Below, in pieces: positions 56,270 through 59,971 of a DNA stretch of 64,000 bases (positions within the stretch are counted from its first letter, which is position 1; every line of letters begins with the position of its first letter). A model generated the notes under the pieces. The model worked only from the letters and a program-made list of their open reading frames with translations. It was not told the DNA's origin and made no database searches. This DNA comes from Methylocystis sp. (GTDB lineage: Bacteria; Pseudomonadota; Alphaproteobacteria; Rhizobiales; Beijerinckiaceae): positions 1 through 64,000 of the forward strand of contig JALHNQ010000012.1 in the NCBI GenBank assembly GCA_022843405.1, written 5' to 3'. The position numbers and the translations under genes were made by a program.

Positions 56270-59200
56270 TCAAGGCGATTCCGCCTCGCGCTCATCGATT
56301 TCAATCCGCGCCGAGGCTTCCGTTCCAGGCTGCAACACAAGCTCGGGATTTTCCGCCTCAATGACAATATCGGCTGTCGCGCCGTCTTGCGGCGACGCAG
56401 GCCGGCGCACCTCAACCACTTTGCCGACGAAGGTCCGGTCAGGCGCGGCCGCGCCCGTGAGCAGCGCCTTCGCGCCCGGCGTTATGGCGAGAGCGCCCTC
56501 GCCCGCCGCCTTGGCGCGAAGGCGAACAGTCTCGGCGTCCGCGATAACGAATAACGGCGCGCCGGCTTCGATGCGCGCGCCAACAGCAGCCATCCGCTGG
56601 ACGATAAATCCCGCAACGGGCGCTCTAAGCTCGGCGCCGGTTCGACCCGCCTCCGCCTTCGTCACCACCTCTCGGCGCTGCGCGACTTCCGCTTCGGCGC
56701 GCTCGACTTGCGCTTGCGCGCGCGCCAGAGCGTGTCTCGCATGAGCTCGCGCCCTGCGGATCGCAGCGCGACGTCCCGAACGCGCCTCCAGTCTTTGGAC
56801 GATTGCCTTAGCCCTCGCCTGGGCGCTCTTGCGCAGCGCCAGGCGCCGCTCAGCGGCCGCCAGCGTGGGCTTCTCTCGGGCCAGCGCATCATCGAAGGCG
56901 CGCGGATCGAGCGTCGCGCAGGTTTCGCCCTTTTCCACTCTAGCGCCGACGTTGCAAGACAGCGTCGCGATCTCGCCTGCCATGGAAGCCGTGATCGGCG
57001 TCCGCGAGACCGGTGCGATCACGCCGCTGACGACGATCGTTCGGGCGGCCGGCCCGTGCGCGATTAGTGCTTCCTCGCGGGTGAGACTGGCGCGCGTGTG
57101 AAGATAGAACGCGCCGCTTGCGACGACGAGAAGCAGTCCCAGAAGACCGGCGAAGACGGGTCGAACCCAGTCGCCAGGAGCGACGACGGCCGCCCCGCCG
57201 GGGGCGCGCGCGGCGGCGTCACGGGCCGCAGGAGCCTTCGCGGGCGAGTGGAAAATGGCCTTCTCGATCTCGACGAGCAGGAACAATACGACGCCCGCGC
57301 CCGCGATATGCGCCCATATCGCCGGGTCGAGCGGCGTGGTGTCGAACAGCGCCTGCATAAACGGCAGGTAGGTGAACATCGCCTGCAGCACGACGACGAT
57401 GGCGACGGAAATCAGCACCGCGCGGCTGCCGAACAGGCCCTTCATCGAGAGCGACGACTCGGAAAGAAAACGCGCGTTGAACAAATAGGCGATTTCGCAA
57501 GCGACGAGCGTGTTGACCGCGACCGTTCGCGCGCTGTCGAGGCCCATGCCGCGCGCCTTTTCCAATTCGTAGAGACCAAACGTCGCAATCAGCATCAGCA
57601 ATGAAACGAAAACGATGCGCCAAATGAAATAGCGGGACAGGATCGGCTCGCTCGACGCACGCGGGGGGCGCAGCATGACGCCCTTGGTCGGAGGCTCAAA
57701 CGCAAGCGCCAGGCCGAGCGTGACGGCGGTGATCAGATTGACCCAGAGAATCTGCACCGGCGTCACCGGCAAGGCCTCGCCCATGGCGATCGCGGCGATA
57801 ATTGTAAGGCCCTCGCCGCCATTCGTCGGCAAGATATAGAGGATCGTCTTCTTCAGATTCTCGTAAACGACGCGGCCCTCGTGCACCGCATGCACGATCG
57901 ACGCGAAATTGTCGTCGGCGAGCACCATTTCCGCGGCCTCCTTGGCCGCCTCGGTACCCTTGACGCCCATGGCGATGCCGATGTCGGCGCGCTTTAAGGC
58001 AGGCGCATCGTTGACGCCGTCGCCGGTCATCGCGACGATTTCGCCGCGCTCTTGCAACGCCTGAACGAGTCGCAGCTTATGTTCGGGACTGGTGCGCGCA
58101 AACACGGTCGTGGCGATCGCCGCCTCGCCGAGTTCCTCGTCGCCCATGGCGTCGAGTTCGCGTCCGGTGAGCACCAAGTCCGGTCGTTCCAAGCCGAGTT
58201 CGCGGGCGATGGCCGCCGCCGTCGCGGCGTGATCGCCAGTGATCATTTTGACCGACATGCCGGCTGACGCGCACTGGCGGATTGCATCGACGGCCTCGGG
58301 CCGCGGCGGATCGATCAGGCCAATGAGTCCGACAAACACAAGCCCGGTCTCTACGTCGGCGAAAGCGAGCTGCTGCCGCCCCTCCTCGGCTGGCTTGCAG
58401 GCGACCGCCAAAACCCTCTGGCCGCGTGCGGCCATTTCATCGATGCGCGCAAGCCAGCGCGCGCAGTCACGCGGGCGCGGCTCTTCTCGCACGCCCTGTT
58501 CCCAAGAGCACATTTCGAGCAGCCGCTCCGGCGCGCCCTTGACGAAAATATAGCCGACGCCTTCATGGTCGTGATGCAGCGTCGCCATGAATTTATGCTG
58601 CGACTCGAAGGGGATCTCATCCGTGCGCGGCAGCTCGAGCGCCAGCTCTTTCAGGTTGACGCCGCCTTTGACGGCGGCGGCGAGCAAAGCGCCTTCGGTG
58701 GGATCGCCCTCGACGCTCCAAATGCCGTCCTTCTCGCGCAGCATGGCGTCGTTGCAGAGCGCGAGGGGCCGCAACGCGGCGGTTAGGTGAACGTCTTCGC
58801 GCAGGACAACGTCCTTGCCGTCGCGCAAGAAACCGCCATGCGGATCATAGCCAGATCCGGTCGTTTCATAGACCCCGCCGGAGGTGACGATCGAGCGTAC
58901 GATCAACTCATTGAGCGTCAGCGTGCCGGTCTTGTCTGAGCAGATCGTGCTCACCGCGCCGAGTGTCTCGACCGCCGGCAATTGGCGGATGATCGCCTTG
59001 CGCCGCGCCATGCGCTCCACGCCGATCGCCAGCGTGATGGTGATGATCGCCGGCAGGCCTTCCGGGATCGCCGACACGGCCAATCCGACCGCCGCCATGA
59101 ACATTTCGCCGGCGTCGAATCCCCATACCAGCGCGCCAAACGCGAAGACGGCGGCGCATATGACGAGAATGACGACGGTGAGCCAGCGCGCGAATTCGTC

Positions 59201-59971
59201 CATGCGCTGCAACAGAGGGGTGGAGAGCGTTTCCACCTCGGACAGCATGGCGTTGATGCGCCCGATCTCGGTCGCCGCGCCCGTGGCGATAACGACGCCT
59301 GAACCCTGCCCGTAAGTCACGACGGTTCCCGAATAGGCCATCGAGGCGCGATCGCCGAGCGCCGCATCCGCCGCGACCGGCGCCGGGTCCTTATCGACCG
59401 GCAGCGACTCTCCGGTCAGCGCCGACTCCTGCACTTTCAGAGATTTGACCCGGATCAAACGGAGGTCCGCCGGAATCCTGTCGCCGGATTGGACATGGAC
59501 GATGTCGCCAGGCGCGACGTCGCTCGCGTCGATGACGACGCGCCGCCCGTCGCGGAGGACGGTGGCTTGCGCAGAGAGCATGTTACGGACGGCCTCCATC
59601 GCCCGTTCCGCTTTGCCCTCCTGAATGAACCCGATGATGGCGTTGATGACGACGACCGCGACGATGACGGCGGTGTCGATCCAGTGCTGCATCAGCGCCG
59701 TGACCACGGCCGACGCGAGCAGCACATAGATCAACACATTATGAAATTGCAGCGCGAGGCGGATCACGGCGCTGCGCCGCCTGCCGGCCGGGAGGCGATT
59801 GGGTCCATGGAGCGCGAGTCGCCTTTCGGCCTCGGCCTGGCTCAACCCCGGTCGGGAGGCGTCGAGCCGCTCGAGCGCCGCATCAGCGCCAATCGCCCAA
59901 TATGGATGTGCTTCAGCCGAAGGGTGCACGCATGGCCTCCTCTGCCGGACGGCTGCCGCCGGCCGCGACAA
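56270..59971 (-). CDS. P-type cation ATPase fused to a HlyD/RND-type periplasmic adaptor
   Basis: 1233 residues. Residues 1-905 form a complete P2-like pump: TGES (186-189), M4 IPEGLP (302-307), phosphorylation site DKTGT (Asp346), KGAPER (478-483), GDGVNDAPALK (650-660) and ten hydrophobic helices. After a Pro/Ala linker an extra helix (about 937-956) should put the rest in the periplasm: a lipoyl half (980-1022), an Arg/Ala-rich helical hairpin (1025-1110), a second lipoyl half (TGAELRAPVAGFIVQRMAAV) and a beta-barrel to 1228. Calcium-site residues Glu304, Asn717, Glu720 and Asn745 are kept, but the M6 Asp is Ala749. TTG start with GGAG upstream; a GTG 14 codons later is possible. The ion is unknown. 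Confidence 0.88.
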   Translation of the reverse strand: MSRPAAAVRQRRPCVHPSAEAHPYWAIGADAALERLDASRPGLSQAEAERRLALHGPNRLPAGRRRSAVIRLALQFHNVLIYVLLASAVVTALMQHWIDTAVIVAVVVINAIIGFIQEGKAERAMEAVRNMLSAQATVLRDGRRVVIDASDVAPGDIVHVQSGDRIPADLRLIRVKSLKVQESALTGESLPVDKDPAPVAADAALGDRASMAYSGTVVTYGQGSGVVIATGAATEIGRINAMLSEVETLSTPLLQRMDEFARWLTVVILVICAAVFAFGALVWGFDAGEMFMAAVGLAVSAIPEGLPAIITITLAIGVERMARRKAIIRQLPAVETLGAVSTICSDKTGTLTLNELIVRSIVTSGGVYETTGSGYDPHGGFLRDGKDVVLREDVHLTAALRPLALCNDAMLREKDGIWSVEGDPTEGALLAAAVKGGVNLKELALELPRTDEIPFESQHKFMATLHHDHEGVGYIFVKGAPERLLEMCSWEQGVREEPRPRDCARWLARIDEMAARGQRVLAVACKPAEEGRQQLAFADVETGLVFVGLIGLIDPPRPEAVDAIRQCASAGMSVKMITGDHAATAAAIARELGLERPDLVLTGRELDAMGDEELGEAAIATTVFARTSPEHKLRLVQALQERGEIVAMTGDGVNDAPALKRADIGIAMGVKGTEAAKEAAEMVLADDNFASIVHAVHEGRVVYENLKKTILYILPTNGGEGLTIIAAIAMGEALPVTPVQILWVNLITAVTLGLALAFEPPTKGVMLRPPRASSEPILSRYFIWRIVFVSLLMLIATFGLYELEKARGMGLDSARTVAVNTLVACEIAYLFNARFLSESSLSMKGLFGSRAVLISVAIVVVLQAMFTYLPFMQALFDTTPLDPAIWAHIAGAGVVLFLLVEIEKAIFHSPAKAPAARDAAARAPGGAAVVAPGDWVRPVFAGLLGLLLVVASGAFYLHTRASLTREEALIAHGPAARTIVVSGVIAPVSRTPITASMAGEIATLSCNVGARVEKGETCATLDPRAFDDALAREKPTLAAAERRLALRKSAQARAKAIVQRLEARSGRRAAIRRARAHARHALARAQAQVERAEAEVAQRREVVTKAEAGRTGAELRAPVAGFIVQRMAAVGARIEAGAPLFVIADAETVRLRAKAAGEGALAITPGAKALLTGAAAPDRTFVGKVVEVRRPASPQDGATADIVIEAENPELVLQPGTEASARIEIDEREAESP

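Follow-up and report, generated by a model that had tools for sequence, protein, structure and literature searches.

We analysed a 64,000-nucleotide stretch of DNA from Methylocystis sp. (assembly GCA_022843405.1, contig JALHNQ010000012.1, positions 1–64,000; hereafter the window, and contig C12 of genome G000 in our genome set), which carries a gene joining a P-type ATPase to a C-terminal tail that resembles a periplasmic efflux adaptor (56270..59971, minus strand, as are all parts of this gene given below). The gene is one open frame with a TTG start, whose 1233 codons and stop are uninterrupted (0 internal stops), and the Pfam domains of the ATPase are found in the same frame as HlyD_D23 and HlyD_3, bearing out a first-pass annotation that had proposed a full P2-like pump in a single frame. 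The ATPase occupies residues 24–906 (57254..59902) by Pfam (Cation_ATPase_N 24–90, E1-E2_ATPase 131–324, Cation_ATPase 404–489, Hydrolase 543–663, Cation_ATPase_C 734–906). All expected motifs are present (TGES 186, PEGLP 303, DKTGTLT 346, TGDGVND 649, TNGGE 716, NLITA 745), and the domains together with the DKTGT and TGES motifs place the protein among the P2-type ATPases. Bacterial P2-type ATPases (cation-transporting/HAD-IC, PMR1-/SERCA-like) have the same domains and motifs, with unfused relatives 53–60% identical. Among NCBIfam models, those of PMR1-type and SERCA-type Ca ATPases came nearest, but the window ATPase scores under both equivalog cut-offs (TIGR01522, 649.5 vs 798.3 bits; TIGR01116, 643.8 vs 703.4 bits), and a Ca2+ pump identity was not adopted on these scores. 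Moreover, the position that we take to correspond to SERCA Asp800 reads Ala in NLITA of transmembrane helix 6; we therefore do not claim a Ca2+ pump, and the transported ion stays uncertain.

Downstream of the ATPase, a linker (residues 907–933; 57173..57253) lies between the Pfam domains, and the plasmid-borne unfused P2 relatives listed align only up to residue 904–912 of the fusion protein. The adaptor tail itself (residues 934–1233; 56273..57172), delimited by our A1 alignment and a tail profile, includes a hydrophobic segment (939–957; 57101..57157) predicted by hydropathy to be the extra membrane helix that had been proposed along with the linker. The tail profile matched MacA at E 5.9e-47, the nearest solved relatives being PDB 9qgy, 5nik, 3fpp and 4dk0, and the Pfam matches HlyD_D23 (992–1217, E 2.8e-15) and HlyD_3 (1115–1216, E 4.2e-12) were above cut-off; the RND_mfp model (TIGR01730) was missed by the window tail (87.1 vs 94.9 bits) and by that of locus L085, and its cut-off was reached by the tails of L072, L073, L074, L077 and L209. 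The first lipoyl half contains the tail's only cysteines, C1006 and C1018 (56918..56956), which are invariant in the A1 alignment. It is followed by a helical hairpin (1023–1111; 56639..56905) with the tip QRLEARSGRRAAI (56759..56797), in which R1060, R1064 and I1071 occupy the positions of the RLS motif, and by the second lipoyl half and beta-barrel (1115–1217; 56321..56629), matched by HlyD_3 and HlyD_D23. Since the chain stops after the barrel, at residue 1233, without the membrane-proximal domain that MacA and AcrA have and EmrA lacks, the tail falls short of a complete adaptor; the earlier description as such holds for both lipoyl halves and the hairpin, and not for completeness.

We then modelled the window protein with AlphaFold2 from an input alignment of 32 sequences, one of them another tail (mean predicted local distance difference score, pLDDT, 71.7). 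The ATPase fold was well predicted, and the hairpin was predicted confidently as two helices (1023–1063 and 1069–1111; ten-residue pLDDT blocks mostly 86–93, less at the ends and turn), whereas the lipoyl parts, the barrel and the extra helix were of low confidence, the alignment having held one other tail. Foldseek with this model ranked SPCA1a and SERCA at the top, and only P-type ATPases were among the 50 matches listed, the tail being too poorly modelled to serve as a query.

The fusion is not an artefact of assembly, which the first-pass annotation had named as one way in which it could fail. A search with the tail region in 61 genomes revealed orthologous fusions in 14 other Methylocystis genomes, with frames of 1218–1252 residues open across the join and 65–85% identity within the query region, one of them (G022) from a single-contig genome; a further Methylocystis copy (G017) is frameshifted. 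A fusion paralogue is encoded as a single coding sequence (WP_124740331.1, annotated merely as a HAD-IC family P-type ATPase) on the complete circular Methylocystis rosea plasmid pGW6_1 (NZ_CP034087.1). We therefore rejected an assembly join or frameshift as the origin, and likewise an oddity confined to one genome, as fusions recur in others. With the window gene as reference, dN/dS against seven orthologues was 0.29–0.42 for the tail and 0.11–0.16 for the ATPase; both parts are under purifying selection, which is looser on the tail. Genome G000 has a second fusion (L018, 3133–6600, minus strand, contig C19, 1155 residues), with a tail that extends no further than the second lipoyl half and lacks a beta-barrel. 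A contig scan kept 80 loci, and among the long ATPase frames looked at, that of L127 alone was fused. Plasmid pGW6_1 carries at least two tail fusions (L250, L252), and an smbP-annotated gene (small metal-binding protein) lies no more than about 3 kb from each.

The same tail occurs on many partner types beyond P2 ATPases, so that the observation is larger than first noted. Partners comprise P2 and P3A ATPases, P1B ATPases with a hemerythrin-like domain, AI-2E transporter–P2 proteins, the F1 alpha subunit of an alternate F-ATPase, CyoD, AHSA1 and a 4-helix (4-TM) protein. NCBIfam cut-offs upheld the labels of the P3A (proton-efflux) ATPase in L072 (945.9 vs 615.5 bits), the P1B (heavy-metal) ATPase in L073 (496.8 vs 346.25 bits), the alternate F1 alpha in L077 (899.1 vs 750.5 bits) and CyoD in L209 (96.6 vs 81.45 bits). 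An AI-2E transporter, a P2 ATPase and the tail form single frames in L074 (11169–15968, plus strand, 1600 residues) and L075 (5920–10815, minus strand, 1632 residues). The P1B fusions, with the hemerythrin-like domain before the tail, are in L073, L074 (2468–5971), L081, L082, L084, L232 and L236–L241; hemerythrin was assigned by Pfam in L073, L084, L232 and L240, and by similarity in the others. A frame-broken gene of this type lies on the Methylocapsa polymorpha plasmid pRX1 (L251, NZ_CP136863.1, 3512–7092), where we rejected the coding sequence annotated 'RND adaptor' as a stand-alone adaptor: it is the end of the broken P1B–hemerythrin–tail gene, the fusion being hidden by the annotation.

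F1 alpha–tail fusions (865–875 residues, with a membrane helix before the tail) are found in L077 (4333–6927, plus), L078 (6094–8715, minus) and L080 (5319–7943, plus); that of L077 stands among the genes for the beta, epsilon, a, c, b and gamma subunits, and L078 looks alike by eye. CyoD–tail fusions are found in L244 (3514–5124, minus), L245 (3768–5762, minus), L209, L201, L319, L321, L323 and L324, and four CyoD–tail frames lie in Methylocystis genomes G005, G034, G033 and G007; the L244 gene stands downstream of CyoA- (COX2), CyoB- (COX1) and CyoC-type genes. An AHSA1 (SRPBCC-type) domain precedes the tail in L214, L217 and L224. The alternate (N-type) F-ATPase alpha and the cytochrome o oxidase CyoD thus score as regular members in otherwise normal gene rows, and differ from their known counterparts by the C-terminal tail; we know of no described F-ATPase or quinol oxidase that carries one.

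How the tail is attached follows the presumed topology of its partner. P-type ATPases, F1 alpha and AHSA1, whose C-termini we take to be cytosolic, are followed by a hydrophobic stretch before the tail (above our hydropathy threshold of 1.6 in L217, L077 and L078, and seen by eye only in L214 and L222). In the CyoD fusions, the tail is joined straight after three helices, and the CyoD C-terminus is presumably periplasmic. As a hydrophobic stretch follows cytosolic ends and none is added in CyoD, the arrangement fits a tail that would always be periplasmic, across partners, consistent with the periplasmic placement through the extra helix expected by the first-pass annotation.

The fused tails form one lineage. 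A maximum-likelihood tree of 79 tail rows (69 fused tails, among them the frame-broken L251, six stand-alone sisters and four outgroup adaptors; L035, L090, L255, L047 and L049 were left out of the tail trees) separated the fused tails from the remaining rows by a single branch, which 979 of 1000 bootstrap trees recovered (support 98/87). We took 18 further tail-like places to look for stand-alone members of the clade. With 12 extra rows, the clade comprised 76 rows (support 98/89), apart from 11 stand-alone adaptors: seven of the added rows fell inside it (four CyoD fusions, L315, L325 and L320), and five stand-alone adaptors, two of them identical, fell with the sisters. A partner is present in the same frame in 73 of the 76 members; the exceptions are L315, which a sequence gap truncates, L325, which lies behind a stop-interrupted fragment of a P3A-like ATPase, and L320, considered below. 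On the tail tree, the partner labels need 14 changes (minimum 9, shuffled mean 38.2), starred branches alone force at most one change per partner, and the F1 alpha tails of L077, L078 and L080 do not cluster. In a tree of P2 ATPases (41 fused and 30 unfused rows), the fused ones form five groups, requiring at least four fused/unfused changes. The single tail clade and these repeated changes indicate that one tail lineage joined many partners. Judged from sequence, a MacA-like periplasmic adaptor lineage has been turned into a C-terminal appendage of several unrelated membrane proteins for energy conversion and ion transport in pMMO-bearing alphaproteobacterial methanotrophs, an appendage of predicted membrane helix, lipoyl domain with cysteine pair, helical hairpin and, usually, beta-barrel, of which the window gene is one product.

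We investigated the taxonomic distribution of the fusion in ranked match lists (by E-value, with 7 candidates scored per genome in the family, 5 in a 397-genome set of the order and at most 19 in a 121-genome order set); because few candidates were scored per genome, divergent fusions can escape. Among the matches listed, fusions of at least 1000 residues, each supported by an in-frame partner domain, occur in 17 of 199 family genomes (43 genera), a count that omits the shorter CyoD, AHSA1 and F1 alpha fusions, the tail-matching 714- and 881-residue frames (G121, G108, G216) and the majority of long frames with an ATPase alone (e.g., 2121 residues in G118). PmoA (PF02461) was found in 20 of the 199 genomes, from three genera, including all 17 fusion genomes, so that a listed fusion of this length is present in 17/20 PmoA-positive vs 0/179 PmoA-negative genomes. 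The PmoA-positive genomes without a fusion among the matches listed are G162, G182 and G225 (whose PmoA is a fragment match), and two PmoA-negative Methylocystis genomes (G003, G008) have none among theirs. Methylocapsa is implicated through the named plasmid bearing the frame-broken tail gene, and the third genus may be Methylosinus.

In the 397-genome order set, the tail-matching frames of at least 1000 residues among those listed were confined to two Methylocystis genomes and G1225, in whose long frame no partner homology was found. Open-frame length alone was rejected as evidence of fusion: L312, L313 and L314, outside the family, showed no partner homology and are taken to be frames open by chance in GC-rich DNA, and fusions were therefore accepted only with an in-frame partner domain. 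PF02461 matches identified G870, G762 and G962 as PmoA-bearing gammaproteobacteria within the 121-genome set, and among the matches listed there we found no gammaproteobacterial methanotroph fusion. No relatives were found in the viral contigs searched.

We next compared docking features among 71 fused tails (near-copies included; L035 and L251 dropped), six stand-alone sisters and 26 other unfused adaptors, rows that are related by descent, so that the counts are not phylogenetically independent and Fisher values are overstated. The hairpin-tip RLS motif, which binds TolC as defined in a passage of PMC3391258, is strictly present in 4/71 fused tails vs 6/6 sisters; the window tail has R, R and I at the three positions (R1064 at that of L, I1071 at that of S). 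The membrane-proximal domain is present in 8/71 fused tails vs 6/6 sisters and 26/26 other adaptors. Both features gave 0/4 vs 5/5 for the added CyoD fusions and stand-alone sisters, bringing strict RLS to 4/75 fused tails and 11/11 sisters overall. The cysteine pair, in contrast to these eroded features, is found in 71/71 fused tails, 6/6 sisters and 0/26 other adaptors. Median hairpin charge was +6 for the fused set, against 0 for the six sisters and +1 for other adaptors.

Gene neighbours were compared by position. No outer-membrane factor (OMF; PF02321) match was found on contigs C12 and C19, which bear the two fusions of G000, whereas 8 of the 13 unfused adaptors of this genome have one within about 5 kb. 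Among 59 fused loci, 7 had an OMF-like frame in their flanks, whose median lengths were 4.3 and 4.9 kb; both positive controls were recovered. An FtsX-like permease gene adjoins each of two plasmid-borne stand-alone relatives, and one of the two has an OMF gene beside it as well; no permease partner was seen at the window gene. On contig C14 of G000, we observed a close unfused row (L017, G000:C14:1-14000, 2664–9126, minus strand) of an OMF (7462–9126), an EmrA-like adaptor (6233–7423), a P3A-like ATPase (3551–6112) and a PPK2-like gene (2664–3554), the last three names assigned by eye; this arrangement is possibly a tripartite P-type pump.

Taken together, we favour, tentatively and with a confidence just short of even, the reading that, in alphaproteobacterial methanotrophs, the tail serves as a tethering or scaffolding module in the periplasm. 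The tail would sit in the periplasm or in the lumen of the intracytoplasmic membranes, fold in an adaptor-like manner, and self-associate or contact the opposite membrane, and could thereby tether, cluster or localise the complex bearing it; the ATPase would still pump its cation alone, with no efflux duct made by the tail. A tether or assembly domain, rather than a duct, is the simplest common denominator, because a subunit of a rotary ATPase, a subunit of an oxidase and further pumps all carry the same tail, and because its known contacts are mostly lost. A more specific version, in which a shared periplasmic or lumenal scaffold gathers ion pumps, the alternate F-ATPase and the quinol oxidase into common assemblies, or keeps them in the intracytoplasmic membranes of these methanotrophs, is conceivable but doubtful, and we hold with equal reserve that such a scaffold would amount to a bioenergetic docking code derived from an efflux adaptor.

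Several observations weigh against the tether reading. Some tails lack the beta-barrel, and L320 (1731–2915, plus strand, G036:C4) is a clade member without a partner in its frame or fetched flank, possibly a free-standing tail or the remnant of a P1B–hemerythrin fusion. The basic hairpins are not general, the P3A, F1 alpha and AHSA1 tails having charges of +1 to +2 and the 4-helix protein's tail −1. Strict RLS is retained by three P2 tails (L068, L070, L071) and one CyoD tail (L244), and is also scarce in the other unfused adaptors (8/26), so that its loss alone is compatible with efflux; PMC4446572 describes CvaA and BesA as adaptors that function without RLS. EmrA lacks the membrane-proximal domain according to PMC4158417, and PMC4446572 ties this domain to pumps having periplasmic domains, so that its loss would also suit efflux by a P-type ATPase. 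The relatedness of the compared rows, which inflates the Fisher values, is a further reservation. Finally, no tail match listed for the 121 genomes of the order of G870, which includes three PmoA-bearing gammaproteobacteria, has a frame above 633 residues, and pMMO membranes therefore do not require the tail.

The strongest rival is single-chain efflux, in which the ATPase would bring its cation into the periplasm, where fused tails arranged in a ring would form a duct to an OMF encoded elsewhere. We consider it unlikely, although the descent of the tail from MacA-like adaptors, the FtsX-like permease and OMF genes beside stand-alone relatives, the confidently predicted hairpin, the three P2 tails with strict RLS, the rarity of that motif in other unfused adaptors, the contig C14 row and the many OMF genes of G000 (20 PF02321 matches, in most genes two each) all speak for it. 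Against it stand the 67 of 71 fused tails without strict RLS, the window's among them, the absence of OMF matches on contigs C12 and C19, and the tail on F1 alpha, CyoD and AHSA1, where nothing obvious is there to be exported and a general duct role is therefore unlikely. The first-pass suggestion that the adaptor relays the ion to an outer-membrane channel accordingly finds little backing, as the RLS tip is mostly lost, OMFs are rarely near and the tail also sits on non-exporters.

Still less probable, in our judgement, is a redox- or metal-responsive regulator, in which a C1006–C1018 disulfide or Cu(I) binding would control the attached pump or enzyme. Methanotrophs handle much copper, smbP-annotated genes lie near two fusions of the M. 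rosea plasmid, and the cysteine pair is invariant in the fused tails and absent from the 26 other adaptors; the soluble-type and respiratory partners, however, share no obvious metal substrate, and the stand-alone sisters also have the pair, which is therefore older than the fusion and may just stabilise the fold. For the same reason, the alternative first-pass suggestion of a periplasmic ion chaperone gained no direct support, the only invariant cysteines being common to those sisters. A largely neutral spread, in which an adaptor gene end was copied by recombination onto other genes without any common function, is improbable: the looser constraint on the tail, the barrel-less tails, the broken copies (L035, L251, L325) and the two or more fusions on one M. 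rosea plasmid would suit it, but dN/dS far below 1, the frame open in 14 other genomes and the invariant cysteine pair argue against it, and it explains neither the consistent topology nor the restriction to genomes with PmoA.

Among known systems, MacA of MacAB-TolC is the closest in likeness (membrane helix, lipoyl halves, hairpin and barrel), but the fused tails differ from it in sitting behind other proteins and in having mostly lost the RLS tip and the membrane-proximal domain. Tripartite pumps (AcrAB-TolC, EmrAB-TolC, MacAB-TolC) have adaptor ancestry in common with the tail; unlike them, the window fusion has no OMF gene on its contig and has lost the docking tip. The first-pass annotation knew of no described example, and the open-access literature, to which our search extended (subscription papers and bioRxiv lie outside its coverage), yielded no description of an ATPase–adaptor fusion among the papers listed; a term search of the main text of the adaptor reviews PMC4446572 and PMC13328181 did not return 'P-type'. 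The mechanism of intracytoplasmic membrane biogenesis in methanotrophs is stated to be unknown in a passage of PMC9445010. Should the tail indeed tether or sort complexes that convert energy, it would offer the first approach, to our knowledge, to the organisation of bioenergetic membranes in alphaproteobacterial methanotrophs, and would exemplify the reuse of an efflux-adaptor fold as a module for localisation. Should efflux prove true instead, the window gene would, as far as we know, encode the first P-type ATPase efflux system on a single chain. Elsewhere in the window, a tRNA gene (46174–46248, plus strand) is the sole Rfam match at gathering thresholds.

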